Positions 3,577 to 63,949 of a stretch of 64,000 nt of DNA are shown here, one piece after another. The notes under the pieces were generated by a model that did not search any database, had not been told where the DNA came from, and saw only the letters and a list, made by a program, of their open reading frames with translations. The position numbers and the translations under genes were made by a program. Within the stretch, counting starts at the first letter, position 1, and every line of letters starts with the position of its first letter. The DNA is taken from NCBI RefSeq assembly GCF_026151205.1, contig NC_087072.1:3429375-3493374 (forward strand), in the 5' to 3' direction. The stretch is from Bolinopsis microptera (Eukaryota; Ctenophora; Tentaculata; Lobata; Bolinopsidae).

Positions 3577-4116
3577 TTAATCACATTCTTGTATACCCTT
3601 AAAGAGAAGGTAAAGTCCCTCAATGTTGATGTCTCCAATGTCGTTGAATGTCATGGTCATTACCTTGCCCTGAGTGTTAGTAGCACAGTCGAATCGCACT
3701 GTAGAGGTCTTGCCGCTCATATGCACTGTGTTACAAGTACTCTTCCCGACTTTAACCTGTAAGGAAGTTAACTCTTTTAACGAGGAACTAAGTGAAATTA
3801 AAATGACCAGAGGGAAAGGAGTTGGTGGGATTTGGAGTTAAGGGAGACGGATTAACCTCTAGAGTTGAAAATAATTCAAATCGATAAAAACATTGACTAA
3901 GTCTTGCAATTCATTATATTTTGAGACAGTTCATCCCATTTGAATGACTTACCACAACGTTTCCGCCACTCTTTGAACAGCAGGACTGTTTATTGTAGAT
4001 CTCCACTGTCTTTATCTGGTAGCAATGTTTGAGGTCTATTGTCACAACCTTGCCGCTCTTCACTCCTTGACACTTACCGTCACCGCATGGTAGACGCTTG
4101 ATCGACGATATAACTC
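3577..4116 (-). CDS. Giant gene, last two exons: divergent discoidin-like C-terminal domain
   Basis: Exons 3953-4116 and 3577-3756 join in phase 0 and end with TAA. The product reads ISSIKRLPCGDGKCQGVK, then VTIDLKHCYQIKTVEIYN, then QSCCSKSGGNVVVKVG, STCNTVHMSGKTSTVRFDC, and ends FKGIQECD. The pattern V-x-I-D-L, V-x-I-Y-N, a CC pair, a V-x-V-G strand and a later C echoes the F-type-lectin/F5-8C domains at the N-terminal end of the same protein, but it lacks their AVDGN and WW-VDL motifs. I call it a diverged discoidin-like fold with moderate confidence; a new C-terminal domain is the alternative. Confidence 0.7.
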
Positions 4117-7100
4117 CTGAAAAAGTGTGAATCTTAGTTGAACTGCTTTAAACAAAGTTTATTTATTGACATTATTTCCGTTTCAATACTTTGAAAGTAG
4201 ACATTCAGGAAATACCAAGGAAATAATTACCGATAAAAACCAAGTAAGTGTGACACTACTATTTATTGGCATTGTTTCCGTTCCAGTACTTTTAAAATTA
4301 AAGTAGACAACCAATAAATACCAAGAAAATCTTTACCAAGAAATACCGAGCAAAGATTAATAATAATCAACAAATAAGATAAAACTAAAAATAAAAAGCA
4401 CAGTTAAGTAAATATTAACCCTATTGATGACACTTACTTGACTTGGTATAAGGAACCTTGCTGGTTCCCGTCATCAGCGAGTACTTGTGAGCCTTAAAGT
4501 CGTGATACACAGCAGTGCAGCCAGGTGTTACCATACAAGCGGCTGTAGCGTGGTCCGTATCTGGGAACTTGTCCGCACCCTTGATGGGTTCTCCGTATTT
4601 CACGTACTTGAGAGTCTGCCAGTGGAGGTGGTGGTGAACAATGGTCAGGTCACTCAGGTCTAGTGTAGTTTCTGGGGAATAATATAATGTTAGTTATCTT
4701 TATTATTTATACGTAAATTATTTATTATTATTGTTTATACGTAAATACTTGTCAAAAATTCAGATATGTCTCATTAAAACTCATGGAATCATTTTTTGTT
4801 GTCAATCTGCCAAGAGTCCCAATTTGCTAACTACAAACAGTCACTCAGATCATACTTACTTCCAAGTAACCAGGCTTGTTCGCCGAGAGCATCAGAAACC
4901 TTCTCTCCCGTCCTTAAGTAATACTTCTTGTGGACGAAGTGTACACTCTGGCACATCGGGTGACGGACACAAGCAGACAGAGCAGTGTTCCGGTCTGTAA
5001 ACACTGACTTCTTGGTTTTGAGCACACCTCCTGTTTTGTAGCCGTCGTAGTAGTTCCACTCGGTACCTGGGAGGGTGGAGGTTAGAATGAGGTTATAGTG
5101 AGGTTAGAATGAGGTTTTAGTTAGAGGCACAGTTTAAAGTGAACTGTGCTACTTCCGTCACGCTTAAATGGCTTGAATATATCACTTTGGGGTATTTTCT
5201 ATTATTGAAGCGTGTTGTAAAATATGTAAATTCTAGAATTTATTACTTTATTCATGCTTGGGGAATGAGGGTCGTATGTTTATTTTGGTGATGCTGAGAA
5301 GCAAAAATTGAATTTAAACTAAACTTTAGAAAATAACAGGTTAATGATTGATGATGGTTTAACAATTGATACTTACTGTCATAAGAGAATTGAGGTACAT
5401 AGCCTGCTCCACCCTTCAGCCAGCAAGAACCACCGTCCCTAGACACTAATTCAGTACTTGTAGCCACCATGAACTTTCCTTCAGGTGTCTTATCCACTCC
5501 AGTACAAGTCTTAGACTTGGAGCAAGCGAACAGAGCTGTTTTCAGGTCCTTGAAGGTGGTGGTAGGTTTAGCTAGGTTGAATCCTGTAACTTCAGTCCAG
5601 ACACGTTGTCTGAAAGTAACAGAGCTACTTCCTCTCAGATACGCAGAGTATCCGTTCCTGCGAGCGGTCCTCTCTATCTTGCCCAATCTGAACTTGTGGT
5701 TATTGATCTTAGTAACACCTGTACAGGCGGGCTTCTTGGAGCAAGCCTTGAGACCAGCAGTCAGTGTACCGTAGGTGGAGGAGTCCAGATAATCTCCATC
5801 AATCTTGTTGTTGTCCCCGGATCTGGTCCACATGTAACCGTCCCCGATAACAGCCTTGGTTCCCTTGTTGTACGTCCTGCCGTGTCCTATCTTCAGTTCA
5901 GTAGATTTGGCCAGGTAGTAGTTACCCTTCTTGGTGACGAAGGATATACCCTTGCAGCTGGGATCAGCGACACAGGCCTCCAGAGCTTGAGGTAGAGTTT
6001 TGTAGGCGTCCTTCTTCAGGTTCTTGTGGATGTAAGGTGCCTTGACTTGCCAGTAATATTCCTTCAGGTACAGAGAGTAGGTTACGAAGGCTAGCTTCAT
6101 ATCGTTCCTGACATAACTGACAGAGTTCTCATCTGAGAACACTGTCCATCCCAGAGCGATGTAGTAGGCACTTCCTCTCTTCACAAATCCAGTACAATCA
6201 GGCTTCTTGATGCAAGCAACAGCAGCAGCCGCCTCACTACCACGATTAGTCTTCTCAATCTTGTCGAGAGTGTAACTGGGGAGTACTGAGAAGAGAACCT
6301 TCTGGTGAGTGACAACAGAGGTCTTCTGTATCCAGGCGGTACGTTTAGAGTTGGGTTTGAGGGTGGTTCCGGTGTTACACCTGTAGATGTTAGGTCCTTC
6401 CTTTGTTACTCCCGTACACTTTCCACTTGCAGAGCACACCTTGAGTGCTGTGTTGCGGTTAGTGTAGACCTTTTTGTTGAAGTAGCCAGTCAGGGTTTCA
6501 CCCATCTCTTCGTCCCAGAGATATCCGTGGACAGCCTCAACTTCACCCTTGTTCAACCAAGTGATTGATCCTGCCTTCTCTGTCATCTTCTCGTGTTTGT
6601 ATAATCTGTACTTGCCGTCGGTCAAAGTGACTCCTGCAGAAGAACAATGAGTTAGTGATATAATAAAATGTGTATCATGACCTTTAGTAAAGTTTGAAAA
6701 AGAAACAGATAAACTTGAACAATCTTACCCCGAAGACAACCGCCAGTTCCTATTAAAAATATGTTAACAAATACCAATAGAGTAAGTAAATAACTGACCA
6801 CTACACTGGGAGTTAGTGACACAAGCTCTGAGAGCAGTGATCCTGGTGTTATAGATCTTGTTATCAGCCAGCGGTCCTGTTAGAGTGTACGGAGAGTTGA
6901 CATCCCATATCTTGTCAGCCAGGTAGATGGAGTAGCTGGTGTAGTCGTAGCCTCCCTTCGTGAAGGTGGCTGCTCCTTTCACCTCCTTAACATCACTTCC
7001 TCCAGCCAGTCTGTGGGGTTGGTATGTCAGAAATGCAGTCTTGTTGATAATTTTACTTGGTACAGTTCATTGCTTATACTGTAAACTAACGAAATCAAAA

Positions 7101-10100
7101 ATGTTGAAATTGTAATTCCCCATCGGGCCCAGGATTGTTCTGACAAGTAAACGTGATTTGGAATGATTGAGAAGGAATTAGGATAAATGACCAAACTTAC
7201 TGGAATTTGTGAGGTCCGAGCTTGTTGACAGCCTTGCAGTTGGGGTTCTTAGCACAAGCTCTTCCTGCATCTACTATCGTGGTGTAAATTTTCTTGTCAA
7301 CGATCGTTATATAGATGTAGTCCGTAGTGTACGAGTAGACGTAACCGTTCAAGGATTCGCATTCTCCGCTGATCTCGATGAGAGTGAATCCTGGTTTCTT
7401 GGTCGGTTCTCCTTCTCCCACTAAGTAGTACACTCCTTCGTCTGTCTTGACCACGCCCTTACACTTTTTGTTCTTCTTGCAAGTTTTCAGAGCAATGCGG
7501 CGGTCCTTAAAGTCAATCTTGTCTAGTCTGTGAGTGGAGAACTGATCAATGTTCACCTCCCATGTTGCCCCACCAACGTTTACAGATCCTGGTCCCTTGA
7601 TCCAGCACGTGGCCTTCTTGGAGGGCTCAGCGACTTTGCCGGTGTTGAGGCGGAACCTATTGGTGCGCTCTCTTGTGACACCCTGGCATCTAGTGAGGCG
7701 AATACACTCGTTCAGAGCATCGTTCCTGTTGTTGAATACTTTGCCGTTAACGTATCCGGTGAGAGCGTGGTGAGTCTTACTCTTCCAAGTGAAGCCTCCG
7801 TAGGATATTGTCATCTCAACCACTGTTGGTTTGATACCTCCTCGCACGAACGCAGGTCTCACCAACTGATGGTTCAAGAGAGTTACCGGAGTTGATCCTA
7901 TATTTCTTGGTGGTCTGGTCCAGAGTAATACCTGTGCATACAGCTGACTTCTTGCATGCTGCTGCTGCTTCCTCCTTGGATTTGTAGGTCGTCTTGCCGA
8001 TGTCTCCTGTTAGTCTGTAACCAGACTTCTCGGAGTAGAAGATATCTGAAACAGAGTCCAGTTATTGGTCAGCAAGTATCAACACATTATGAGTTTTGTC
8101 ATTCCTTATGATTTCAAACTCAAATTGCACCTGCTGACTGAAAGACAAAACTTGAGTTTTGGAAGATGAGAAGATACTTACAGTCGATAACTTCGTAACG
8201 GTCGCCACGAATGTAGGCAGCGTAGTTGCCGTTGGCACGAACAGGCCGGTCGTTGTTATTTGTTCGGAATCGGTTAAATTCCTTGGTAACACCCTGTATA
8301 AAATTACAATATTTAGTCCTGAGAACGTTATCTATTACATGAACTGAGATATTATGGTGATTTTGCTCACAATTTTAGCGAAATTTAAGGTATTCCCGGT
8401 GGATCTAATTAATTCCATTAAATCATCCACCCAAAATATTGCAAAATTTGCACCACTTCATCAGGAGACTTTCTATTGATACCATTCAACCATGAAATAA
8501 GATCTTTGTCGAGTTCCGTTAAAATCCGATTTGCTAAATTGATTCACATTTTGCATCTATTGAAGATCGATGTATTTTTATTTTGTGTAGCCTGCACGGG
8601 ATTATACTTATAGGCGAGTTTTTTCACATACCAACCTAGATAAGCCAACACGTCTCACGTACTGAAATGGTTGCAGATGTCTAAATATGTCAGAAGTGGT
8701 TAACAAGCTGTGAAACCTGACCCTCTCTCTCTCAACCCATGACTCAACCTCTCAAGAGATAGCAATCCCGCCTAACATTTCCGAAAATATCCTATCTAAT
8801 TCGTCAACCACTTTTGACTGAGTACCTACATTTTCAAGAGAACAGAAATCCTATTCTGGATTCGCTTCCGTCTTTGTTATGTTGCTGGTGATCGCATTGG
8901 TATTATTCCATTCAGCTGAATGTAAAGAAAAGCCTCACCTGGGCCGAGGTTTTTATCTTCCTGATACCCCAGTTTACAAGCTATCAGCCGAGGGGAAATC
9001 TATATTTAGGAACCTACCAGATAGCTGCTTCGTCAAACAGACGAGCACCAAAAACAGGGCCCGAATACTCAGTTTTACCAACCCAGGGGAATTCTATCGG
9101 TTCGTCGGAGAAGATCTAGGACTAAAGCAGTACCAAATAATGCCTCGCAACCTTTACAAAACCTTGTTATACGTCTCTCTGAGCATTTCCACTGATCTGG
9201 AGGTGGTTGGAGCAGGTATAGAAATCAGCCGGGAACTATCCTCTACCACTCTTCTTCCGGACTGCCTTGCTAAAGCTGAACTCAGCGAAGATCTGGTCCG
9301 AGATTTTAAAATATTGGCAGATAAGATCAAGAAACCGTCTGTTGCTGACAGCTGGATAGAATACCAAACATTCCTGAGAAAATACGGGACCCACTACATG
9401 AAGGGGATGTACAGCGGGAACAAAGTCCACAACTTCGTGTTTGCTAAGAAGTCCTCCGGATACACTGTGGATCAGCTAAGTGCAGCAGCTTGCCTCAAAC
9501 TAAAGAATGGTGGACTTACATTCTGTCAATTCTCAGACCATACGTATAAGGAGGTAGCGGCCCTAAAAACCTCTGAATATTACGAGGTATACGGAGGAAC
9601 TGCAGAAACAAGACTCAATATGACCGAGGGGGATGTGACCGCTGATGACCTTTACAAGTTTATCCGGAGTGATACAGATGAAGAGCAACATATCAGAGTG
9701 ACTTTAGAACCCCTTACTCTGCTCCTAAAGAACAGGTTCCTGGGGACGGAGTACTTCTCCAAAGCTCTCAACCTGGAGCAGTTCTACGAGGGGTTCGTGG
9801 TTAAGGGTTGTGATGAGAAGTCGGTGGGAGGGGTTCTTACTCAGCGGTTCAGACTGATCAGCAATCTCCACTCCCTCCCAGAGTACAGGTGTGAACTCGC
9901 TAAAACAGGGTGTCGGTCACATAACGACTGCCATCTTGATGTAAGCTCCTTCTGGACCCACTGCTACTGTTACGGTAAGACCTGTATCACCAGTACAAGA
10001 TGGAGCACTGCTGAGTTGGGGAGCTACTCCACCAGATCAGCTCAAGTCTCGCTTCACGGATCTACTTACGAGGGAGAGAACATGTCATGTCACTATCTAT

Positions 10101-13100
10101 TTGGCCCTTCTTGTGAGTGTGACTTTGGTGCCCATAACCAGTGGGACGAAACCTGGCCTGGACCTAAATCTGATTTCTCGCAGGATCTCCAGTTTTATAG
10201 ACAACTTTATAAGAACGGCGTCTTGTTCAAAAGCGGAGCAGGGGGACAATTTTTTGACATTTCTGCAGTGCTATTTTTAATTGTCACGATGAAGTTATTG
10301 ATGTCATGACCTTCATAAGAAATAGGAACTAGGAAATAACAGACAAAATTTGATCAGAATCATTGACGATAGTGCAAGTTACAATATTCCAAATTTCATA
10401 AATGTAGATGATTTCCACCAATATACTATTAACTGTTACATCATGATTTGTAATTTGTATAAAATGATTTTAATCTTGATATTTTTACTATTTGAAAAGA
10501 ATTAAGAAAAATACATTTAGATTGTCTTCTCACAAAAATCTTGAGATCATCCTTCGACTATAAATACAATTTCATGTCGATTTAAAGTTGACTCAGAGTG
10601 AGTGATAATATCTTACCTTGCAAGTTGGGGAGGCAACACAAGCCTTGGTGGCATCAGACAAACTGGTGTAAGTCTTGTTATCATCATACCCTGTCAGTCT
10701 GTAGTTCGTCATCTTAGCCCACAGATAATTTTCACTTGTCAGCTGCAAGGGTAGGCAATTTTAGCTTGAACCAGATGAATGCAAAATTTATTTCTTATTC
10801 GAATTAAGTAATTTCTAATCATGATATAATTTTATTTCACTTCGATAGAGGATATTTCATTTTTCTCCGTAAGAGTTAAGAAAAAAGCAATTTGTCTCTG
10901 CAACCGAGCACCCTATACTGAGTACTCAGTAAGTACTACAAACCTTAATTCCGCTGTAGACATAAGCAACATGTCCTATTTTAGGTGTGACCATCCTGTT
11001 GTAGTGGTATATCACGTAAGTCTTTCCGTTCCACTCGAACCCGTTACATCCGTGCTTCTCTTCACAGAGCTCCATTGCCTTAGCAATGTTAGCAGCTGTT
11101 CCAAGCTTGCTTCCCTCTGTGATTGTAAAACTGTTAGATACGTACAAACGCTTTACGAACAAATGTTAAGGTAAAATTTCTACGTTTACATTTAACTAAT
11201 ATACTGACACAAATCTAAAATAACAAATGCAAAATGTCTTCGCTGGGTCAACTCTATCTGTGTAAGAAGAGATACTTACGCAGTCCGGCGGGAGAGTATC
11301 CGATGTAAGCCTTATCGTCCATGTTAACAATACGTTGGGTGGTGTAGAACTCGTCCTTAGAGTAGACAACCCCTCCCTTCTGTCCCTTCAGTTCTCCGTC
11401 CTTGTTTAGTCTGGTGGGGAAAACAGTGTTGTAAATCTGACATTCATCAAATTATAATTAAAACAACAATCCCTTGTTTTGAAATAAAAATAAAAATACG
11501 ATGACCATCGATACACTCATAGTTAATTTATATCTAAATCAACTATACACCCCGAACGTGTAGATTGTGTACACACTACACTGTAGATTGTAAAGTGCTG
11601 TTTCGGAATCGTATGTCATTGATACTTCATAATTTATGCGTATCATTCATATCGCCCGATAAGACTGATGATATCCCACGTGATGGCGCGCATGGTCACG
11701 TGATTTCAGAGCGCTCACGGAAGGCCTCTAAATATTGACTTATATTCATTTGTTTACGCGTTGTTTTTGCTGCTGTTAAGAATTCTATGCTACTCAGAGG
11801 ACTGAGCTTAGAAACTCCAATTGCAGACGGATCATCTTTCTGTTTCCCGCCTGTAGCCGTAAGCGAATTGTTATTCTTTCTTTAACTAGCGAAATGGTTG
11901 CTTACTGCTTTCCATCATTCTAAGATGAGTAGTGAAATGATCTTACCTGTATTCTACCTCTTTGAGTTTACTAACTCCGACACAATGTACATTAGCAGCA
12001 CAAGCTGACTTCGCACCTTCCGCAGTTAAGTAGACCTTTTTGTCGACGAAGTTGACTCCGACGTAACCGGTGGAGATAGTAAATCTGTAGTCTGAGAAGA
12101 TTGGACGTGTGAGTAAAGTTATTGTCAATTAAATCGTTACTGTTGGATCTAGTTCTGTACGTGTTTGTTTGTTGTCGATTTCTTTATAATTGTTGTTTTG
12201 TGTTTGGTCGTTTTGTTTGTGTTTCTAGAATTGTCAATCGATGTCGTTCAGATTTTAAAATGCTGTGAGAGTGAAGATTCGTATTTTTAGCGACTTACCA
12301 TTTTGAACATCAAAGCTTCCCTCCTTGATGTAGCAGTCCATGTTATTGACCTTCCTGGGACTGTTACCAGTATTGAGTCTGTATCTCTTGGTTCCTTCCT
12401 TAGTCACACCATTACACGAAGTAGAAGCAGCACAAGCCTCCAGTGCGGTAACCAGGGCAGTGTAGCTCTGACCACTGGAGTAACCATCCAGTCTGGCTCC
12501 CTTGTGAGTGGAGTAGACACGTTGTGACACGTACATGTTCTTGTAAGGGGACTCCTTGACCCAGGACTGGGCTTTGAAGCCAGGTCGGGGGATGCCCACG
12601 TGAGACAGGTGGTACTTTTGGTGGGCGTCAGCCGTTATTCCCTTACACCGTGAGTCTCTCACACACGCTGAGAAATAGTTGGGTTTGAAATAGAATTCCT
12701 TGCTTTAACTATAACTATCACAGCACTTCATATTTAATACATCAGATGTAGTTTTAAGCAACTTAGGGTGATATTTTATCGTCTTTTTTACCTCTGAAAG
12801 CTTCAGGAAGAGTGTTGAAAGTTCTGTAAGTTCTGCCGAGTGCGAATGGAGCGGAGTAATGCCAGGTGTAACCTAGAGCAGGCCAGCTGAAACTCTGTTG
12901 GTCTTGCTCCTGGCCTCCCTTGACGTAAGTGGTAGTTCCAGTCTCATCACGCTCACCGTCCCCCTCAGCTAAGTAGTATTCGGTGGCTGACATGCGGTTA
13001 ACTGCTTTGCATGCTGGTGAAGCAGCACAAGCTTTCTCTGCTGAGTCCAGGGTGGGGTAAGGCTTGTCTTGGACCCAGTTGGTAGCGTAGTTGGTCTGGA

Positions 13101-16100: not shown

Positions 16101-19100
16101 TTTAAATTAGCAAGCCAAATGTGTGCAAAAAATTTTGAGTTCTTAGCTTAAAGCGTTCTCATTTTATGAAGACAATAGTGAAAAAGAGGGAGTGTCACGC
16201 CACGCCCACTGTAATTGGGCGTGGCTTACAACACTTTCAGGAAATCTAAGTTTGACCCATATCTATAATCTCTGAAATTTTGGTGCAATTTGGAGATGAA
16301 TTACGTGAGTTATTAAGAGGTTGCGTGTGGGTAGTCACTTTTGGGCCACCCTGTATGAAGCGGAAAAGGAAAAAATGGAGGAGGAAGGAAAAGAGGGAGG
16401 AGGAGGAAGGAAAAGAGGGAGGAGGAAAAGGAAAAGAGGGAGGAGGAAAAGGAAAAGAGGGAGGAGGAGGAAGGAAAAGAGGGAGGAGGAAAAGGAAAAG
16501 AGGGAGGAGGAAAAGGAAAAGAGGGAGGAGGAGGAAGGAAAAGAGGGAGGAGGAGGAAGGAAAAGAGGGAGGAGGAAAAGGAAAAGAGGGAGGAGGAAAA
16601 GGAAAAGAGGGAGGAGGAAGGAAAAGAGGGAGGAGGAGGAAGGAAAAGAGGGAGGAGGAGGAAGGAAAAGAGGGAGGAGGAAAAGGAAAAGAGGGAGGAG
16701 GAAAAGGAAAAGAGGGAGGAGGAAGGAAAAGAGGGAGGAGGAGGAAGGAAAAGAGGGAGGAGGAAGGAAAAGATGGAGGAGGAGGAAGGAAAAGATGGAG
16801 CGGAAGAGGCGAACAGGACATAATGAGGTATTGACCAATTTGAAGCGTCTGTAGGACGGTCCTTCTGCTACCAATTATAGACCAGTCAGTACTATAAGTT
16901 CAACTTAGATCTGAGTAACGGTCACTTTTGGTCACTCTTCCTTGACATGTTGATCACGTGACTGAACTCTTGATAACTTCCATACATCTTATGTAGAAGA
17001 GTAACGCAGGACGAAAAGGAGAGATATGGAAACTGAGTAGATTGGGTTCATCAAGGAACAACAACTGTGAGGCACACGCAAGGCACCACTACACTGTTTT
17101 ATTCACATCTTTTCTTTTGTTTGTTAGAAAATGCATAGAGTAAACGCACAATAAATATACGCAGATTTGTTTGTAAAAAAAGAAATAAAGTAGATATAAT
17201 GACCGTTTATCATCATCAAATATAAAATATTTACCTGAGGCGATGGTCTGGACTTCTCCCTTGACATAGCAAGTCTTGCCGGATGCTCCTGAAGGGTTGT
17301 TTCCAGTGTACATTCCGAACCTGTTGTTACCCTCCTCCGTCACACCCTTACACCGGTTTCTTCCAATACAAGCCGTCATAGCCTCGCTTACTGTTTTGTA
17401 AACATGGTTACCAAGGCGACCGATTAGTCGGCTGTTGGAGTGTTTAGACCACATGTGACCTCCGTTACCAATATTTAGTCCCATCAGTTCCCAACCGACC
17501 TCTCCAAGACGCATTACCTTATTAGATCCTGAGTTGTGGACCGTTCATTAAACACTCCTTACGTATGTAAAATTTTGTTAAAGGTTTTTTATCAAAGTTT
17601 TCAGCTCACGTGTATATTTTCTTGTCATGTTTAAATTTGATGGAAAATTTAGAAATCAAGCTATTAAGATCGAACCTGAACGAAATGACCATAAAAAGTA
17701 GAAAATTTCTGTGAAAGTGTTAAAAAGTGTATACTTACTTTGATTGATTCTGTAAGTTCCGTCCTCTATTCTAGTGTATCCTTTGTAACGTCTCTTGTTC
17801 TTCAGTACATGGTTCCTCGCTATAATAGCTGATTTGTAGACCTTTCCTCCTTCCATGCCTCCTAGCATGTACGGGCTGGTTCCGCGCCACACGTAACCTG
17901 CAACGAAATGAGAATTTAGTTGATGTCTTACTCATTTAATGTTTCATTTAATGAATCATTATCACAGCATAAGCATAAAAGTTATAGAAACTGATTGGTA
18001 AATTGAGGCGTTATGTTTTTGCCATTTTATTTTTACGCTGTTACATCATTACCTCCATGTGTGATGTAGTAGGTTTCAGTGTGAAGGGATCCCTGTACGT
18101 ACACAGTAGAGTCGGGCTTACTGCGGAGTTCAGTTCCTTTGCCAAGAACGAACACATTAGCTGTGGCTGTGATGCCAGAACAATGTACATCCTTAGCGCA
18201 GGCTTCAGATGCAGAGTCCAGGTCCTTGAACTTCTTGTTAGACCGGTTATCCTTGTACATGAGACCGGTTACCTTGGTCCAGTAGTAGTCGCTCATGATG
18301 GACAGAGCGTTGGATTTGGTGTAGGACACGGAGGTCTTGCTAGTTTTGGTGGTTCCTGAAGAGTTGAGACGATAGTTGCTCTCCCCTTCTCTGGTTACTC
18401 CCTTACATCCAGCATTCTTAGCACAAGCCTCCAATGCAGCTGTTCTTGTCTTGTAAACCACGTTGTTAACGTAGCCTGTAAGAGTCCTGCCCTTCAGGGT
18501 AGACCATGTGTAGTCTCCTCCAGTAACCACTTGTCCACCCTGAATCCACACGGACCGTCCCTTCTGGGGGTACACGGTGGCGTGGTGGTTCAGACGGAAC
18601 CTGCGATCAGCCTCCTTGGTAACACCCACACAGCGAGCTTGAGCTCCACAAGCCTGAAGAGCAGCATTTCGTGTATGGTATTGTCTTCCGTCGGAGTATC
18701 CCTCCAAAGTGAAGGGTGATTTGAAGGTCCAGGCGTAACCAGCATAGGTGAGACTGAACTCTTGTACTTGGATAGCAGCGCCTCCCTTGATGTAGGCTGT
18801 CATGCTGTTCTCTGCCATCGGGATTTGACCCGAGTTGAGTCGGTATTTTGAGTTTGCTTCCATTGTTACACCTGCATTTAGGAGTATGAGAATAAATTCC
18901 AATTTTTCAATGAACTTTAAACATAAAACATAATTTGTGAAAATTCAGCTAGGTAGTCAGCGAGACAAAATTGACTCAAGTCAGCAGTTGGTAGATGATA
19001 AGATTCTGACCGTGACACTTGGAGTTGGTGAGACAAGCGGTCATGGCTGCATCACGTGACGTGTAGCTCTTGCTGTCAGCGTATCCGACTAGTCTAAATC

Positions 19101-49100: not shown

Positions 49101-52100
49101 CGTAAAATAGACATTCTCGCTGTGCAAGAAACAAAATGTCGTCACTTTGAGGATTCAGTTTTGTATTTTACAGATGATGATGGGAAATCACACAAATATC
49201 GCTTCATAAACTTTCAGCAATTTGACAATAAGTGGCAAGCAGGTATTGGTTTCCTTGTAAATTCAGTCTATACCAACTACATCAAGTGTTACAACAGTAT
49301 CAGTGACAGGGTTGCTTATCTAGATCTTGAGATACCAAGTAAATCAGGTAAACCAAGACTTTGCCGTGTTATCAATGCCTATGGACACACTCAAGTAAAT
49401 TGTGATAAGTATCCGCAGAGACGTGATTATTTCTACAAGTTTCTTGGCAAAGCTGTTGATATCCCATCAAGTTGGGACTTATATATTCTTGGAGATTTCA
49501 ACTCTCGACTCGGTAAATTGTCTCATTCAGATATTGTTTTCGGGTATAATGACTTTATGGGTATGTTTGGGTCTGGAAAGAGGAATTCAAATGGAGAGCA
49601 TCTTCTTAATTTTCTTGTTGATAAAAAACTTTTTGCTTGCAACACTAGCTTCCAGCACCCTGTCCGTCATATAACAACAAGAATTGGTTTTATGAAAGAC
49701 TACTCAGCTCCTAAAAACTCACATCGCACTTTGCCCTACTACTCTCAAATTGACTATGTCCTATGTAGCAGTCGATGATCTTAAAATTTATTCCGCTTTT
49801 AGTTTTATTCCCACTCTCGATTCCTTGCTAGCAGTCCGGTTAATTTAGTACCTTTAGTGGGTCTCATTTAATCATTAGCTCTAATTAAAGAACCTCTCAC
49901 CCTCTCAGAAAACTCCGTTTGGAGATATTCCTTATTACGCTCTAAGTTATCAATTTTCCTTGTGTTTGAATCCTTTCACTTTTTAACTGTTTTTAGTCTT
50001 TGTTATTTTCGGCCGATTTCTGCACTTTTACACTGGGTCATCATTCATAATTTCTGGGATTGAGACGACTTATATGAGCATTTAAGGAAGAGTTTGCTTG
50101 TCTGACTTACTTCATTAGACACTTCTGGTCAAGAACTGAACAAGAACCACATTCGAAGACTGGAACATCTGAATGACTCTGCAACCCAGGAATCAACTAC
50201 TCAGTTATTATCGCTCAATAATCGGTTTGGTATCGACGTTACATACTTTATTATTATTTTTTTTAAAAGCTGATTTTAGAAACCAGGGAATTAAAGTTAC
50301 TGTCCCAAGGCTAACATTAAATCGCTGATTTTATTTATATATATCACTTTTTTTGTTCTTTCTTTTCCTTCAAAACATTCCAGTACATTGTGCAGAAAGT
50401 TGGAGATGAAGCCGTAGTACGTACATGTAGCATTGCACTGGATTGAACTTGCAGAGTGTGGTTTTTTCCAGTCTGCGCCGTGTGCTTATACAAATATACG
50501 CGGCGCAGATAGACTGGAGGAGATTGCACTGTGTAGGCTCTGGTGTAATGTGATATGTATGTACTACGGCTTTACAAATTTTGGAAGCATGTAGGGATAT
50601 ATTTCTGATACCAATCGTATATACTAAAAATACTCTAGCACAATTGTAACTGCAGTTTTACAGAACTCTAAATGCTTAATGAACACTCTTGCAGGTACCA
50701 CCCGTATTCACACTCAGACCTGAGTTTAGTCATTTTCCAATACGAGATTGGGGACGGGTTCTATAAACAAACAAACAAACAAACATGTAGCAGTCGATTG
50801 AAGAAACTTTTAGTGAATTCTCGAAGTTATGGGGGTACTCTTGTTAAATCTGATCACAAAATTGTTATTACACGTTTCAACTTCAGTGACGCTCACCTTG
50901 TCTTCCCCAAACAGAAACCTAAAATGCATTTTGATATCACAACCCTTGCCAGTAATCCTGCTGCTAAAATGCATTACAACAACACATTGAATGATATTCT
51001 AACAGACAGCCCTGTTAATCCTAACCCTGAGGAAGAAATGAATAGTTTGTTTCACAATGTACATAAAGCTGCTGAGGTTAGTATTGGATACCTTCCTAGG
51101 AAACGCCCTAAAAACTTTTGTAATGACCTTGAAATTCGAGAGATGTCTGATGAAAAGAAAGTTCTACAAGCTCTACTCAATCAGAACAACACCTCTGAAG
51201 ATAGATCAGTTATACGTACCAAAATCAATCGTATTCAAAATGACACTCGTAAGAGAATCAAGCTCCTTCAAGAAGAGCATGCAGACACTCTTGCTGAAGA
51301 GATAAACGAAACTGATAGTTCTAGAGCATACTTTGCAGCCACTCGCCAACTAGCAGGTATCAAACGTGCTCCAACCATAAGTGTGCATGATGAAAACTCT
51401 AACTTCATAGGTACAGACACTGGAAAAGCTGCTACACTAAAGAACCACTTTGAAGAGAAGTTCACTGCAAAACATACAGTTGAGCCTATTGACACTTTCT
51501 TTGATCAACCTAGTCCTCTCGCTGACCCTATTACTGCTATTGAAGTTGAGATAGCTGCTAAAGCTTTGAAGAATGGTAGAGCCACTGGGCCTGATGATAT
51601 CCCAAGTGAATTGATTAAGTATGCAAACAGAAGTGTATTTCAGAAATATGCAGACTGTATAAATACCGCATTTGAAACAAACACCACCATAACATCTATT
51701 GGAAAAGGCAACATTACTCCACTCCAAAAGCCTAAGAAACCACTTGGTCCAGCAGCAAACATCAGACCTCTCACCCTCTCAAACTGCTCCAGAAAATTAC
51801 TGTCAATGATTACCCTAAAACGTATCCAAGGCAAGCTAGATCAGTACACCGGTCCTACACAAAGTGCTTACAAGAGAGGTAGAAGTTGTGGCGATATAAT
51901 TTGGTCTCAACGTATGCTAACCTCAGTGGTACTTAGAAAGCATTGGAGCTACCACAGAATGAGTATAGACATGTCAAGTGCCTTTGACACCATCAGCAGA
52001 GAAACAGTACTCAATGTTCTTGAAGATGCTGGCTGTACTAGTGATGAAATTAGGATGGTACGGCTCCTACTATCAAACACAGTGTTGAAAGTAAAAGTCA

Positions 52101-55100
52101 ATAATACTGTATCAATTGAGTTCCAAAGCACAACTGGAGCATTTCAAGGAGATGCACTATCAGGTAATCTATTTACTGTTGTTGAAGCCGCTGCACTTAT
52201 TCACCTCAGATCTTTACTCTCCCAAGTATCATCAACACCTTACCCAGTGAATCATCCAATCCCTAATCCTCCTATCTCAGAAGAATTCATGCCACTCGAA
52301 ACAGGATACTCTGATGATATTGACTTTAATAACATTGAACTTGCTCCACTCAAAGAAATGCTTCCTATCGCTAAAGATATATTCCAGCAGTGGGACCTTC
52401 ATATCAATTCTTCCAAGACTGAATTTGTCCATTTTTATTTAGCAGATCCTAAACCCACTGTTAAACGCAAGGTGATTGTTGGAAAAGTGTATAGAGGTGA
52501 TGAAGAGTGGCGCTCTAACAAAACTTTAGGATCGTTGATGTGCACTGTTAAGGATATCAAGAATCGAATATTCCTTGGTAATGTTGCCTTTAGTAAATTT
52601 CAGAAAGTTTGGATGAAGAGCAAGATTTCAGTCCAAAGGAAGATCAAAATCTACGAGGCACAAGTAGTCTCTATTCTACTCTACAACTGCAACTCCTGGG
52701 CTGCACCACTAGCTTCGTTGAATGAACTTGATATTGCTCATCGCAAACACCTCCGAAGAATCCTCAACATCAGATGGCCTACTGGGGTTATTTCTAATGA
52801 GGCACTCTATGCTCGTTGTTATGTCACTCCCTTGTCTGTGAGAGTCTCTAAGTTTCGATGGAGAATGTTAGGACATATCTTAAGAGGACAGGAAGACTCA
52901 CCAGCATACACCTCTATGTTATTTGCTATAAATTCTGATATTTTTATGGAAGGGAGACGGGGTAGACCATGTTTAAACTTATTAGATGTTATTAGAAAAG
53001 ACTTGACTAGTAGAAACCTTGATATTAGACTTAAGAATTTGACTGATTTCGAAGACCTTAGATTTTTAGCTTTAGATAGGGAGGAGTGGAAGAAGTTAGA
53101 AGATGGTTGATGTTTTTGTTTTCTTTTTTATGCGTTTTGATATCTATAAGGTGCCTAGGATGCTCTTTTAACGAGATATTTCGTACTTTGAAAGATTTAC
53201 TACTACTACTTAATTTAATTTAATTTAATTTAATTTAATTTAATTTAATTTAATTTAATTTAATTTAATTTAATTTAATTTAATTTAATTTAATTTAATT
53301 TAATTTAATTTAATTTAATTTAATTTAATTTAATTTAATTTAATTTAATTTAATTTAATTTAATTTAATTTAATTTAATATGACAATTTAATTGGGCTCT
53401 TTAACATCACACAATATGGTAAAGAAAGACACTTCATCAAAAACACTTAAAATCTAGAACAACATAAAAACTTGAAGTTTAAAAACCAACCTCCAGTTTG
53501 TTGAGCCCAGACTCCACCGTTACCACCGAACGGCTGTCCAACACCATAAACCATAACCTCAGCTAGATGAAGTGGCTGCTTGCTCACCACAATCTTCACC
53601 ACCCTACCGGTCACACCGCCACAGTTAACGGGGTAAACCACTACGTTGGGGATGTAGATAATAGTTCCACACAGATGTGTGTCCAGATACACCTTGGCAC
53701 GGTTGATACGTTTGCTATAGCTCACACTGTCCCGTCTGTGGTGCACCAGGATAAGATGTACCGGGTATTTCTTACCCAGATCAACCTTCCACCAGTTCAT
53801 GTCCTTGGTCTGAGTGTGGGTCATGCTTCCTGCTCCCCATCTAGGGTCTGCGTTACCGTCCACGGCACGTTTAGAGACACCCCCGTGAGCCGTGCTGCTC
53901 TGTTTTGTCATCTGGTTCAGTGACAGCCAGTTCAGTCCGCTGACGGAAGTTGCTCCTCCTGGAGACAATTTCTGTTATTGTTTTGAAATGTGTGTTGGAA
54001 TGTTTGGATGGAAAAAGGTAACAAAACATTCAGATATATACAAAGATTCAGATACTGTAACTTTAACTTGTACTTACCAAATACTTGAACTTCTGAGAGC
54101 TGGAGATAACCCTTAGCGTTAGTAATCCTAACGTAGGTTCCAGATGTTCCCTCACAAGAGATAGGGTACACAGACTTCTTGTCTCTGTAGAATATTGTTC
54201 CGCACAGGTGCCAATGTTTGGGATTACCGTCTCCGACCCAAACCTTGGCTCCGTTAATGTATCTAGTTGTAGCTCCGCCGCCGTCTTGACGGCTGTAAAC
54301 CAGCACTAAGTTAACGTGACTTTCTTTCTCCAGTTCTACTTCCCACCAGCTGTCCGTGGCTCTTCCTGTGCTGCTTGTTGTTCTGGAAAGTTTGTTTTTA
54401 ATAAATTATCTCCTTACGGTTTGATTTTTTTTTCTGAAAATATTACTCAGATTTTTTGCTCAGCTGATTCAATGATAAAAATTAGAAACTGAAGTTTTAT
54501 AGAGAGATAAGCTGACTTACCCTCTGTTCCAGTGACCGTCGACGAAACCGTCAACAGCTCTGGCTGACACTCCACTCCAGCCAGTGTTCGACTGTTTAGT
54601 GGGTCGTCTCAATGAGAGTAGCTTCACGTTTCCAGATCCGAGCATAGGACCGAACTGAGTTGGGCCTCCAGTTCCCAGAACCTCGACTTCAGCGATGTTC
54701 AGGATCTTAGTGTGGCTTATCTTAACGATCTTTCCTTTGCGTCCCCCACAATTGATAGGGTAGCTCCTCACATCCTTCAACCACTTAACAGTACCACACA
54801 GCTGGTCATCCACGTAAACCTTAGCTCCGTTAATACGGTCCACGCAGCAGAGATCCCATCTGTTGTGTATAATGACAGTGTAGACAGGGAACATTCCCTC
54901 TAAATCCACCCACCAGTCGTTCTTCTTACCGTCAGTGTGGATGCTGGTACTTCTACTCCACCACCCGTTAGAATTACCGTCCACAGCTCTCTCAGGTTTC
55001 CCACCGTGAGCAACGGAAGACATGTAAGCAGGCTTCTGGTAGGATAGTAGACCTATACCCTTGATGCTTCCAGCACCTCCAAACACTTGGACCTCAGCCA

Positions 55101-58100
55101 TGTGAAGGTAGTTGTTGGCCAGGGTGATCTTAACCGTTCTGCCGGTAGCTCCGTTACAGGGGATATAGTAGATGTTTCTGCCGGGAATGTAGAAGACTCG
55201 TCCACAGCGGTAGTTGGCTACGAACACTTCAGCTCCGTCTATTCTGTTCTGACAACAGTCCATCCTGTTGTGGATCACGACGAAGTTGATGTTGTAGTTG
55301 TCTTCTAGGTCCACCTGCCACCACACGTTTTTGTGTGATTTCGTGTGCTGAACAGAACTGAAATATTGTTTGGGTTAGATCAGCTTTTCGATACATCTAG
55401 AGTTTAAATACATAGAATAGTGTATATATCTTTATAAATATTTTCGATTTGCACCTCTTCTGACATAAGATAACAAAAGTAGTAATAGTAAGAGAACGCA
55501 CTGTTGGTTCCAGTATCCATCGGTGTTGCCATCCACAGCAGCACCAGCCTGCGAGCCCTTATTGTAGTCGTCGATCTGGGTTGCTCCCTTGTTGTAAGAG
55601 AGTAGGATCATGTTTCCTCCTCCCATCAGGGGTGTCTTACCGTCTGTGAGGGGAGTTTTACTTTGAGGAATAGAATAATAAACTAAAATAAGGGGTATTT
55701 TTAGTAGACAAACTGCTCACAGATTCAGGAGTCTGGTAACGTGATTACAAACATTTCTGCTGCCTACTTGACAAAAAAAAAACAATTGAATTGATGAAAA
55801 CGAGGAGATAATGTTATATATGGGTTTGTTGTCAAATGTAAAACTGAGATGATGAACAAATAAAGTGATTTTATAGTGTGTACCAGTGATGTAGCAGAAC
55901 TTGGTTCCAGATATGAGATTGTTGTCGCGGGTAGCGTGTCTGTAACCGCCGTTCTTGAGCCAGCAGTGTCCGTTACTCTTGTGGTAGGTAAATGCAACAC
56001 AGGCTGGGTGCTTCTTACAGCGGGTAACACACTCATCCAAGTTCTTGTTCTTGGTGCGGAAACTGGTGATGTCGCCTCCACTGAAGTTAACGTTTTGTCG
56101 CAGACAACCTGGTAAAAGAGGATGTGTTATTTCAATAGACAAACACTGATCAGGCTTCCTGCTTTTAAACATTTGAATTTCTTGTAGTTCAGATTCTTAC
56201 AAAAGAAATAAATATCTGACAACATACTTCTAGTGATAGAAGTCCAAGTTCCAGCAGGCCCACCAAAGGCGATCCTCATGACATTCTTGTACTGGATACG
56301 ATGTGGGAAGATGAGTTTAGGTTCGACCTTGTTGATGGTGAACTTGTAGCCGTTGTAAAGGACTGTGATAACGATAACGAAGCTCTGTCCCTCTTTAAGA
56401 CCAGGCCAGTCAAGGAACATCTCCTTCTCCCACTTTCCTCCCTGAAGGAGTTCAGTACGATTTTCTTCTGTTTAGGTCGCCCGTTGAAGTGTAGAGCAAT
56501 CTGAAAGAGTTTAAGTAGTGTCACATTTGGTAATCGTTAATACTTTGATAGTTGATATGTATCGTTGCTTTGTGGTGAAAAGGGTGAAATTGTAATTTAC
56601 TGTTTGGTAAAATCAAATATTTACTGAATTCTGGGAATGACTAAAACTGAACACAACAAGAAATTGCTAATCATGCTCATTTTTGTGCACTTACGTCTTT
56701 TCCAGAGCCCATGAGGTTAAACACCCATTGTTTGCTATCAGTTGTGTGTTTTCCACGGATGATGAACACATTTCCGAGTTTGATTTTGCCTCCAGGTATC
56801 TTTTCTACCTTCGCGTTGGTTATTGACGATCTCTTCCAACCTGAAAACATGGCAAGTTTGATTAAAGAACTTGAGAAATTGCTGTTGGATGTGAAAATCA
56901 TAAAAAGAAACTAGTCGTTTTTTTCTATTTGTATGCCTAGGGTAAAAATGAGAATGATTACACTAATTTAAATACACTATACCTCCAATGTTGGTTGCCC
57001 AGACACCACCGTTTCCACCGAATGGATATCCAACTCCGTACACCATAACCTCTGCCAGAGACAAAGTGTTGTGTGCTTGCACCACCTTAACAATTCTTCC
57101 CTTCTTACCATCACAGTTAATTGGGTAAGTCATGCGGTATGGAATGTATGAGATACTTCCACAAAGCTGGTTATCAAGATAAACCTTCGCTCCGTTAATT
57201 CTATCTGGAACCTCCTTTCTGTTGTGGACCAGGACCAGGTATACTGGGTAGGTAGCTCCAAGATCCACCTGCCACCAGTTGTCTTTGTTGAACTGAGTGT
57301 GTGTCACACTGTTGTGACTCCATACTCCTGCTGCGTTACCGTCCACTGCCCTGCTGGCAACGCCGTTAATTTTAGTAGAAGATTGGGTTGCTTTCTGGTG
57401 CCAAGAGAGGAGATTCAGGTTGCTGACAGCTTGTTTTCCTCCAAATACTTGTACCTCGGCGAGGGACACGCATCCTTTTTTGTGAGACACTCGCACTGTG
57501 CTAGCTAGTACTCCTTGACAGCTGATAGCGTAGCTGTTTACGTTTTTCCTATAGTTGATTGTTCCACACTTCTTCTTCCCGGCCCAAACCTCAGCTCCGT
57601 TGATGCGGTCCTGGACTGTATCAACCCTGTTGTACACCACCACAAGATTGATGTGATGCTCGTCTCCAAGGTTTACTTCCCAGTGGTTCTTTTTGTGGTT
57701 TGTGTGACTTATCGAGCTGAAGATGGTTGAGATAAATTAACTCGTAATCATTCTTTATTTTGGCGTATACTGTAATGTAGTACTCTAACATGAAAAAAAC
57801 TTCAGTAGTAAAGCTGTATTTTAGAAAGCTCTTTATCAAAATCTTACTGTTCATTCCAGTAACCGCTTGGGTTTCCATCGTTAGCTCGTGAAGGAACTCC
57901 GCCATTAGTAGTAGTTGACTGGGTGGCTGGTCGGTTTTCAGAGAGCAGCATTACATTTCCTGAACCAGACACGAAGATGTCAGGGCCTCCGGTACCAAGC
58001 ACTTGGACCTCCGCCAGTGCCAAGTAACCGTGACGCTGGATTATCTTCACTTCACTTCCTTGCATTCCCCTACAATTGATGGGGTACACTTGGATTTTAG

Positions 58101-61100
58101 GCATCCATTTTACTCTGCCACACAGTCTCTTACCTACGTAAACCTGTAAATGGCGGATTACAATTTTGCGGAGGGAACAACGTTTTATAATCGTGTTCAT
58201 GCAATGGACAAGTGTCATTTAAAACAATATCTCATTATTAAAGCAAGGAGGCTGACTATTCATTTAACAGTTTAACCCACCTCAGCCTTATCAATCCGGT
58301 CGCGACAACAAGCGTCAATCCTGTTGTGAATGATGACCATATATACGGGATACACTCCCAGTAGGTCCACCTTCCACCAGTTAACCTTGCCCTTCTGGGT
58401 ACCAGAAGCGGAGTGAGTTACACTTCCTCGGCCCCACACACCGTCAAAGTTACCGTCCACAGCTCTGGAGGAGTGTCCGCTCCACCCGGTAGAGGACTGG
58501 GAGGTTGGTTTGAAGTATGACAGGAGGTTAAGTCCGGAGACCGCGTTGGGACCACCGAACACTTCTACCTCTGCGATCTGGAGGAAGTCTTTCCTCGGTT
58601 GGAGAAGCTCCACTACGTTGCCAGTTGCGCCGTTACATGAAATGTAGTAGGCCAAGTGGTATTTGTTGTAGCTAATGGTACCGCATTTAGTTTTTGTCTT
58701 TCCGTTGATGACACTAATGACAAGTCCGTTGATTCGTTCAGCGTGCTCAGCTCTGTTGTAAACCACTACCAGATTGATATGGGTCGAAGCCCCGACATCA
58801 ATCTTCAACCAGTTGTTTGGAACATTTTTTGTGTGCATCACAGATCTGAAAGTGTTTAAAATTAGGTCATGTAGATTGTAGCAGAGCTGTCTGTAAGTTT
58901 AGTTTACAGATTAATAATCCATGCCTTTAAACATATTATACTTTGAAACTAAGAAATTTTAATTCCTTACTTGTCGCTCCATCTTCTATTGGGTCGACCG
59001 TCAATGGCTCTAGCAGGAAGACCTCCATAAGCTACTGAAGACGATGTAGCCGTAGCTCCGAAGGATAGCAACTGTACGTCACCTCCTCCCATGTAACCTG
59101 CACCAGCTTTAGGTCCTCCTGAATAGGCAGATAATTTAGCATTTTCGGTTTTGTAATAACTTCTTCTTAATTTAGTATCAGTGAATATTAACATATACGT
59201 TAAACATGAACTATGCCTTCAGTTGTACACTTGAGCTGGACGAACCTGTTCCGAAGACCTGCACTTCAGCCAAAGTGAGGAAGTTGTTGTTCTGAACGAC
59301 CTTGATAACCCTTCCAGATGTGCCGTCACAGTTGACAGGATACACTTGCCGGTCTGGGTACCAGTGGATCGTTCCACACAGTTTAGTGTCTAGGTATACC
59401 TGTCAGGTTTAGGAGGGTTTAGAGACATAATTTTCAAATATCAATCTCGTTTACATGCAACATTTTAAAGTTAGTACTGTCAAGCGTCCACTGCAATGTA
59501 TAATTAAGGATTATATCTTGCTCTCAGCAACATTACCAATATGGTATTGTGCTCTTAGTTCTCCAGACTAATTAATTAGTCAAGCCAGGTAAAAAGCATG
59601 CCCCGCAATTACACAAAGCAGAAAAATGAATTCCAGCGTACCTGAGCACCGTTTATATGTCGTTTGACACCCTTCTTCGGGTCTACTCTATTGTGGACCA
59701 GGATCGTGTAAACAGGGTAGCTCTTCTGAAGATCCACCTGCCACCAGTTGTTCTTAGGTCCCTTGCTGCCGTAGCAGCTTCCGTGGGCGGGGGCACCGTC
59801 AACATTACCGTCTACAGCTCTCTCAGGTATTTGCTTCTTATTCCTATCTATCCCAACTGAGCTGGCTTTAGTTGGCATGCCCTCGGACAAGATTCCTAAT
59901 CCGGAGACACTCTTGCTACCACCATACACCTGCACTTCAGCCATGTGAAGCCAGCTGTATCTCTGAACTATCTTCACGTATTTACCTATCTTGCCGTCGC
60001 AATGCACTACATAATAGAGCTCCTTTGGGTTGAACCTTATTGTACCACATCTCTGGTTTCCGACATATACCTGGAATCAATTTATGAATGGAGAGTAATG
60101 TGAAGTTTATCTATAATATTCAATATTGAAAAGCTGAGGGCCCTATTATGCAAAATACCCTACATTGAGCATTATCAATTGTTATATTGTGTCTAAACTC
60201 TAATCTGCATTAGCCATTATATATATCCTGTTACTGATCTATAATACTTCGCAAACACTAAATCCCCTATAATAGCGAATACTAGGCAAGAAATAAGACC
60301 GCACCTCAGCGTTGTTGATTCGTTCTGGAGACTCCCTACGGTTGTAGATGACGACCATGTTGACATGATAATCCTTGTAGAGGTTTACTCTCCACCAGTT
60401 ATCTTTGGGTTTACCACTGTGGGAAACGGACTTGTGTCCCCATTGAGGATCAGTGTTTCCGTCAACAGCTCGCATAGCCAGACCACCGTGGCCCATACTG
60501 GACTGAGTGGATTGTTTGTTCTGGGACAGGAGCATTCCGTAGTCGCTGCTTCCTATGTTGGAGCCGATAGGTCCTGGACCCCCGGTACCAAACACTTGTA
60601 CTTCAGCCAGCATCAGATAGTGCTGAGGTTTTTCAATTCGGACATGTTTTCCTTTAAGGCCCTTGCAGTTGATAGGGAAAATACTCATACCAGGTAGGAA
60701 ATGTATGGTTCCACAGACTTGTTTCTCGACCTTGATAACGGCCCCATCAATCTTCTGCAGTGCAGTATCCGAGCGGATGTGTACAACTACCAAGTATACT
60801 GGATAGACTTCACCTAGATCTACCTCCCACCATTGGTTCTTGTTACCAGCGGTGTGAGTAGTTTTGTACTTGTTCCAGTTTCCGTTTGTGTTACCGTCCA
60901 CAGCTAAGGAAGATTTTCCTCCACAGCATGTAGTGCTCTGTTTGGTCGGACGTCCGTGTGAGAGTAGCCCAAGTCCAGGCACGCTTCCGGGTCCACCTGG
61001 GAGAAGAGGGGTGGTTATTATTGTAATGTCGGGCACATCTGGTTATTGCCAATATCGTACATTCGTTTTTAGAAAGTCGTGCATGTTTGCTTTTCATTTT

Positions 61101-63949: not shown

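Follow-up and report, generated by a model that had tools for sequence, protein, structure and literature searches.

Ctenophores form a deep branch of the animals and possess an adhesive cell type unique to them, the colloblast. According to the excerpted text of a 2018 study on Mnemiopsis, lectin and MACPF categories are overrepresented among colloblast candidates, TECPR (PF06462) is common to ToxProt and the colloblast candidates only, and BLAST gave no support for homology between these candidates and known adhesive proteins (PMC6278862). Giant adhesive proteins have been described from the flatworm Macrostomum lignano; Mlig-ap1 (5,407 amino acids, aa) and Mlig-ap2 (14,794 aa, with a repeat region of 46 repeats of 255 or 221 aa) carry C-type lectin, VWD, EGF, TIL, LDL receptor and TSP-1 domains in the available part of that report (PMC6410801). 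Here, we analyzed a 64,000-nucleotide stretch of the ctenophore Bolinopsis microptera (contig NC_087072.1, positions 3,429,375 to 3,493,374 of the forward strand; the whole stretch is referred to below as the window), which a sequence-only reading had proposed to hold one giant minus-strand gene encoding several kinds of lectin domain and a long array of an unassigned module. The best explanation of our results, to which we give a probability of about 0.6, is a single ctenophore gene for a secreted, multivalent, glycan-cross-linking protein of ca. 17,000 residues. The domains, their order, the periodicity of the array, the depletion of N-glycosylation sequons and the conservation in relatives are read directly from the sequence.

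By analogy, the head-plus-arm logic of the predicted protein resembles that of the flatworm adhesive giants, with which it shares giant size, a large repeat region and carbohydrate-binding and basic parts. The domains are different: F-type, galectin, tectonin and PAN domains are not named for Mlig-ap1 or Mlig-ap2 in the excerpted report, and the likeness is one of description only (PMC6410801). With the F-type lectins, such as eel lectin and FBP32, the giant gene shares sequence similarity, tandem domains and, in some domains, the fucose motif; unlike them, it has 42 F-type domains mixed with galectins, PAN domains, a tectonin propeller and the array. The fold predicted for the array module is the PAN/apple fold of plasminogen, HGF, kallikrein, factor XI and TgMIC4, and the gene, like PAN/apple proteins, also carries canonical PAN and kringle domains. 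The array modules differ from those proteins in that they keep one cysteine pair, escape Pfam and occur 104 times in a fixed order. (We count plasminogen, HGF, the leech proteins and SML-2 as members of the PAN class.) No gene identity ties the colloblast TECPR gene to the giant gene in the portion of the Mnemiopsis study consulted (PMC6278862). A search of the open-licence literature, which covers the field in part, yielded no description of such an architecture, and none of such a protein among ctenophore galectins, PAN proteins, tectonins or F-type lectins.

Extent of the gene

The gene was modeled with a dynamic-programming gene finder that takes splicing into account and was trained on long minus-strand open fragments; nine masks, chosen by hand, covered mobile, simple-repeat and low-score stretches. 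A path obtained in this way cannot contain an in-frame stop, and its weight rests on its score and on the domains it encodes. The window has a eukaryotic layout, with short introns between minus-strand open fragments and, within introns, plus-strand reverse-transcriptase open reading frames (ORFs). Without masks, the minus strand scored 7,449, compared with 524 for the plus strand, 221 for the reversed and 642 for the complemented sequence. Some exons were modeled inside sequence of long interspersed nuclear element (LINE) type and inside simple repeats, and these stretches were masked in the final model; one short, low-score exon left after masking (21302-21351) is probably spurious.

The part of the gene inside the window (3577-63949, minus strand) has 104 exons with 34,365 coding bp for 11,455 aa, and its 5′ part runs past the window. 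Its stop codon (TAA, 3577-3579) and its most upstream exon in the window (63841-63949) coincide with the two ends given by the sequence-only reading. The size of more than 11,500 residues proposed there was slightly too high for the window and too low for the extended model: a genome search revealed further F5/8C matches upstream on the same strand, and when eight neighboring 10-kb stretches were added, the model did not end at 63,949, as had been supposed, but stayed open to window coordinate 98,460 (ca. 34 kb past the window). The extension adds 5,682 aa, giving 17,137 aa in 174 exons. The first ca. 900 residues of the extended model form a repetitive region and are its least certain part, and an exon near window coordinate 100.7 kb is a possible candidate for the signal-peptide exon.

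Could the model have fused at least two adjacent genes, either a lectin gene and a PAN-array gene or two genes split at the 4.7-kb intron that holds LINE-type sequence? The unstable ends of a multi-gene model and the 10 of 103 window introns that exceed 250 bp speak for this, which we nevertheless regard as quite unlikely. The introns are short (median, 144 bp) and consistent in phase (phase 1 in 59/103), those at the five comparable lectin-to-galectin borders measure only 116 to 218 bp, and the junction between the tectonin propeller and the array is kept at 89% identity in a protein from another assembly. Since 93 of the 103 introns are shorter than 250 bp and 29 of the 70 array introns interrupt a module, several genes in the window are unlikely.

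Lectin head and module array

The N-terminal half of the protein is built from lectin and PAN domains, all on the minus strand. At the upstream edge of the window lies the last exon of a putative galectin (63841-63949) whose other exons are upstream, followed by PAN domain 1 (63247-63465; Pfam PAN_4, 1.3e-09 on 63244-63486) and, with their introns, ten F-type lectin domains (57028-63080; nos. 25 to 34 of the extended model, with Pfam run on two pieces). Galectin 2 (56228-56840, with a frame change near 56.45 kb), PAN domain 2 (55885-56106) and F-type domains 35 to 38 (53533-55617) come next, and then galectin 3 (48070-48766; Pfam, 2.1e-19), PAN domain 3 (47693-47914) and F-type domains 39 to 42 (44834-47553). 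A degenerate F-type/F5-8C domain (3580-4116) forms the C terminus, far beyond the array, and lies just above the Pfam cut-off (F5_F8_type_C_2, 28.3 bits; cut-off, 27.8). All three PAN domains in the window were aligned and one was tested with Pfam. The two window galectins reached 28.7 and 69.7 bits with Gal-bind_lectin and an upstream one 72.5 (cut-off, 22.1), and the HFNxR...W..E signature seen in galectin 3 is present in three galectins of the extended model. A two-domain F-type piece (54520-55374) matched the fucolectin FBP32 (2.7e-28) and eel lectin (1k12; 4.2e-9) in the PDB; the other F-type domains were assigned by hidden Markov model (HMM).

Upstream of the window, the extension holds 24 further full F-type domains (42 with the 18 in the window), five further PAN domains, further galectins (one tested; Pfam, 2.8e-20) and two kringle-like regions (one tested; Pfam, 3.1e-24). 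Below the Pfam cut-off lies a bulb-lectin-like stretch (3.8e-05), and the cysteine-rich repeats of the upstream part had no Pfam match. At ca. 87.6 to 98.5 kb (L013-L014), repeated units of kringle, PAN, CPPSHPH..CCAG and TWNDNYLC-type cysteine-rich segments were observed, the last two types again without a Pfam match; a TWTDNFFC segment elsewhere (L025, C6) resembles the TWNDNYLC type.

A six-bladed tectonin propeller (42062-43264, minus strand; Pfam PF19193) is inserted between array modules 4 and 5. Three of its Pfam matches exceed the cut-off of 30 bits (79.5, 46.2 and 31.2), the six blades were counted by eye, and the region matched the PDB entries Tectonin 2 (4.2e-22), fish-egg lectin (1.6e-9) and, more weakly, HERC2 (4.9e-8). 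Together with the gene model, this domain census bears out the composition given by the sequence-only reading: three PAN domains, 18 full F-type domains, a six-repeat propeller, a discoidin-like end, ca. 104 module copies (we count exactly 104) and, overall, known folds in an unfamiliar combination of high valency. The three galectins require qualification, in that two are complete in the window and the third is completed upstream.

The array itself occupies most of the C-terminal half. An HMM of the module gave 109 matches, five of which are PAN domains, leaving modules 1 to 4 (43265-44636), 5 to 51 (28000-42059, completing with modules 1 to 4 the first 51-module half), 52 to 102 (5405-27841, the second 51-module half) and 103 to 104 (4438-5389), all on the minus strand. 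The module had been left unassigned, and an unknown fold was dropped in favor of a predicted PAN/apple fold with one conserved disulfide (AlphaFold predicted local distance difference test [pLDDT] score, 95). Exactly two cysteines occur in 80 of the 104 modules, and the C..C core is kept in 99. The modules thereby fall short of the core of four to six conserved cysteines that defines the PAN/apple domain in the excerpt of the source consulted (PMC9249922). Pfam PAN models applied to 42 modules returned nothing above cut-off (one PAN_1 match; E = 0.042), a PDB sequence search with the modules gave nothing credible, and the module profile aligned with the PAN domains of the gene itself over 23 columns (P = 0.00094; probability, 22%). 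Structural matches to copper oxidases, mimivirus R655, thyroglobulin, plant receptors and PrimPol were not taken as support for the fold.

The order of the modules is strict. In an all-against-all comparison, modules 51 places apart were on average the most alike (36% identity; 53 pairs); of the 69 offsets ranked, the top 20 were, without exception, multiples of three. Offsets divisible by three stood out from all others by a contrast of 0.194 (0.169 without offset 51), compared with a null standard deviation of 0.009 and a maximum of 0.043 in 2,000 permutations. Both halves carry this signal on their own, with z scores of 10.3 and 10.1 for period 3 and 9.7 and 8.2 for period 6. Ahead of the first module of each triad, the linker is longer, and two linker lengths take turns there in 30 of 34 cases; one of the four exceptions falls at the boundary of the halves and another at a frame change. 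Among the introns of modules 1 to 51, 10 of 28 have a same-phase partner within 3 residues, 51 modules on, whereas eight other offsets gave 0 to 4 partners among 28 to 35. Taken together, the offset-51 peak, the two periods, the linkers and the intron partners indicate an array of triads within hexads that arose by duplication of a 51-module block along with its introns.

Protein searches returned four relatives with a long array exon, 14 with a ten-triad profile and one with the tectonin exon, none with a telling name. Within P0001 to P0018, 17 match a single place in the array at 53 to 97% (P0018 is distant, at 35%), and their next-best place, usually the 51-module duplicate, reaches 32 to 42% in 16 and 47% in P0017. 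Because one place is matched so much better than the next, the 51-module duplication is older than the split of most of the relatives' species, with the order kept since then. P0003, P0010 and P0014, each located on a 1,585,575-bp contig, are probably three orthologous exons of one contig. In the prokaryote genomes searched for relatives, 15 pattern matches were found and none was confirmed.

The array modules might themselves be lectins, like some galactose-binding apple-domain proteins, rather than a spacer. We consider this improbable; module identity is only ca. 22 to 25% at most offsets. A bolder proposal is that the modules form a continuous superhelical rod of three- and six-module repeats on which a ctenophore glue or matrix would be built, and that the loss of sequons along the whole chain in the course of evolution shields the lectins from self-binding; we hold this tentatively and rather doubt it. 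We know of no description of such a fiber made of two-cysteine PAN modules.

Sequon depletion and probable secretion

The protein contains 23 N-x-S/T sequons, compared with 149.2 expected from composition (z = -11.0), a sixfold depletion, with 6 N-x-T compared with 74.3 expected. Of the control patterns, four (N-x-[GA], N-x-[DE], N-x-[VIL] and Q-x-[ST]) occurred about as often as expected, three (D-x-[ST], H-x-[ST] and [ST]-x-N) were mildly low (z = -2.3 to -2.9), and N-x-[KR] was high (z = 3.6). Both parts are affected (lectin half, 8 versus 75.5 expected; array, 15 versus 67.2), and the depletion in the array persisted when shuffling was confined to columns (14 versus 53.9). It also persists in the relatives (18 versus 46.1 in 18 overlapping sequences; 4 versus 25.7 in the ten less alike).

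Depletion of this kind suggests passage through the endoplasmic reticulum. As to its cause, we prefer the avoidance of self-binding, with steric packing as the alternative; a literature search on sequon avoidance in lectins found nothing on point among the papers listed. The modeled protein has no hydrophobic segment of transmembrane strength, and on account of this, the sequon depletion and the lectin content, it is likely to be secreted.

On another contig (L017:1697-4867, plus strand; G000:C9), a single 1,057-aa ORF with a PAN and four F5/8C stretches contains one sequon. This ORF may be a small relative of the giant gene, and related genes may share the depletion.

Proposed function and nested sequences

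From these features, we infer a single transcript, secretion, a rigid array, the sugar specificities and a tissue of action. The N-terminal half, which combines F-type (fucose) and galectin (beta-galactoside) domains with PAN and kringle domains, would act as a head that binds at multiple points to fucosylated or galactosylated glycans on prey, mucus or matrix glycoproteins. The C-terminal half would be a long, basic arm in which 104 two-cysteine PAN/apple-fold modules in fixed three- and six-module order probably make a semirigid rod, with the tectonin propeller near its base, and the packed modules would space and cross-link. The near absence of N-glycan sites would probably prevent self-binding in the secretory pathway. 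Where the protein acts is a guess: we give even odds to an adhesive or mucous secretion, distinctly less to mesoglea or egg coat, and least to a humoral agglutinin. The first of these is aided, loosely and by analogy, by the lectin, MACPF and TECPR entries among the Mnemiopsis colloblast candidates. A giant lectin with an ordered arm is thus a concrete candidate for a colloblast-type secretion or for mesoglea; its regular PAN array would be a testable fiber design, and whole-protein sequon depletion is a signature to seek in proteins that must avoid their own glycans.

Two other roles deserve mention. The protein may be structural rather than a glue, its lectins anchoring it to the matrix glycoproteins of mesoglea or egg envelope and its array giving mechanical length. 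The array is regular, the modeled protein lacks a membrane segment, and kringle and PAN domains, which are found in other extracellular proteins too, are both present. Matrix-specific features (collagen or EGF repeats, for example) were not seen in the Pfam-tested pieces, which make up part of the protein, and nothing here is decisive; we rate this role as possible but on the unlikely side. Less likely still is an agglutinin of humoral or mucosal innate immunity, in which the tectonin and F-type domains would recognize microbial sugars. The tectonin propeller is present, and a role for F-type lectins in immune recognition is described in the part of the review consulted (PMC5712786), but a conserved 104-module arm seems more than recognition would need.

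Several observations weigh against the single, secreted, glycan-cross-linking giant that we prefer. The runs of the multi-gene model made to locate the gene start gave ends that shifted with the penalties. The F-type fucose motif, described as His followed by RXDX4(R/K) with HX24 spacing in the excerpted source (PMC5712786) and scored here with His 24 to 27 residues ahead of Arg, is complete in a minority only (6 of the 18 domains in the window and 10 of the 24 upstream); the cation motif, as given in the same source, occurs in 14 of 18 and 15 of 24. Tandem apple pairs of known structure fit the module model badly (root mean square deviation, ca. 10 to 13), and rigidity of the array is suggested by the regular linkers and a three-module prediction. 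Sequons are also mildly low in 25 ORFs of other F5/8C loci (38 versus 56.9; N-x-T, 19 versus 25.5) and in 13 other ORFs of the genome (17 versus 26.0; N-x-T, 9 versus 8.6), so part of the depletion in the giant gene may be general. Finally, at four sites (ca. 56.45, 41.76, 21.28 and 7.85 kb), the domain sequence shifts frame with no space for an intron, and the gene model bypasses these sites through alternative splice choices. The four came to light on visual inspection of the reading frames, and the count is possibly too low; an automatic scan for frame changes within modules returned none, and a suspected fifth near 15.0 kb was unconfirmed.

These frame changes, with the LINE-type ORFs in introns, are what would be expected of a decaying gene or an assembly artifact, which we nonetheless consider very improbable. 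Other assemblies carry open orthologous exons at 53 to 97%, and the sequon depletion is maintained in relatives. Moreover, P0019, a protein from another assembly, reads straight across the one frame change open to checking; an intact copy therefore exists, and an assembly indel is likely at that site.

Other sequences lie within or beside the gene. An intronless 476-aa ORF with a MACPF domain (8879-10309; Pfam, 1.4e-06) occupies a 2.3-kb intron on the plus strand, opposite to the giant gene; its start resembles a signal peptide, its C-terminal tail is hydrophobic, and it had no PDB match at an E value of 0.01. Downstream of the giant gene (L009:1532-6850), plus-strand ORFs have weak WD40-type and Clathrin_H_link/TSNAXIP1_N matches, and nothing suggests a link between them and the lectin gene. 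Two large introns hold plus-strand ORFs for reverse transcriptase and endonuclease (21509-22795 and 48927-53110; RVT_1 and Exo_endo_phos, with DUF6451 below cut-off), and a 1.9-kb intron contains a long GGAGGAGGAAGGAAAAGAGGGA-type tandem repeat (16362-16800).
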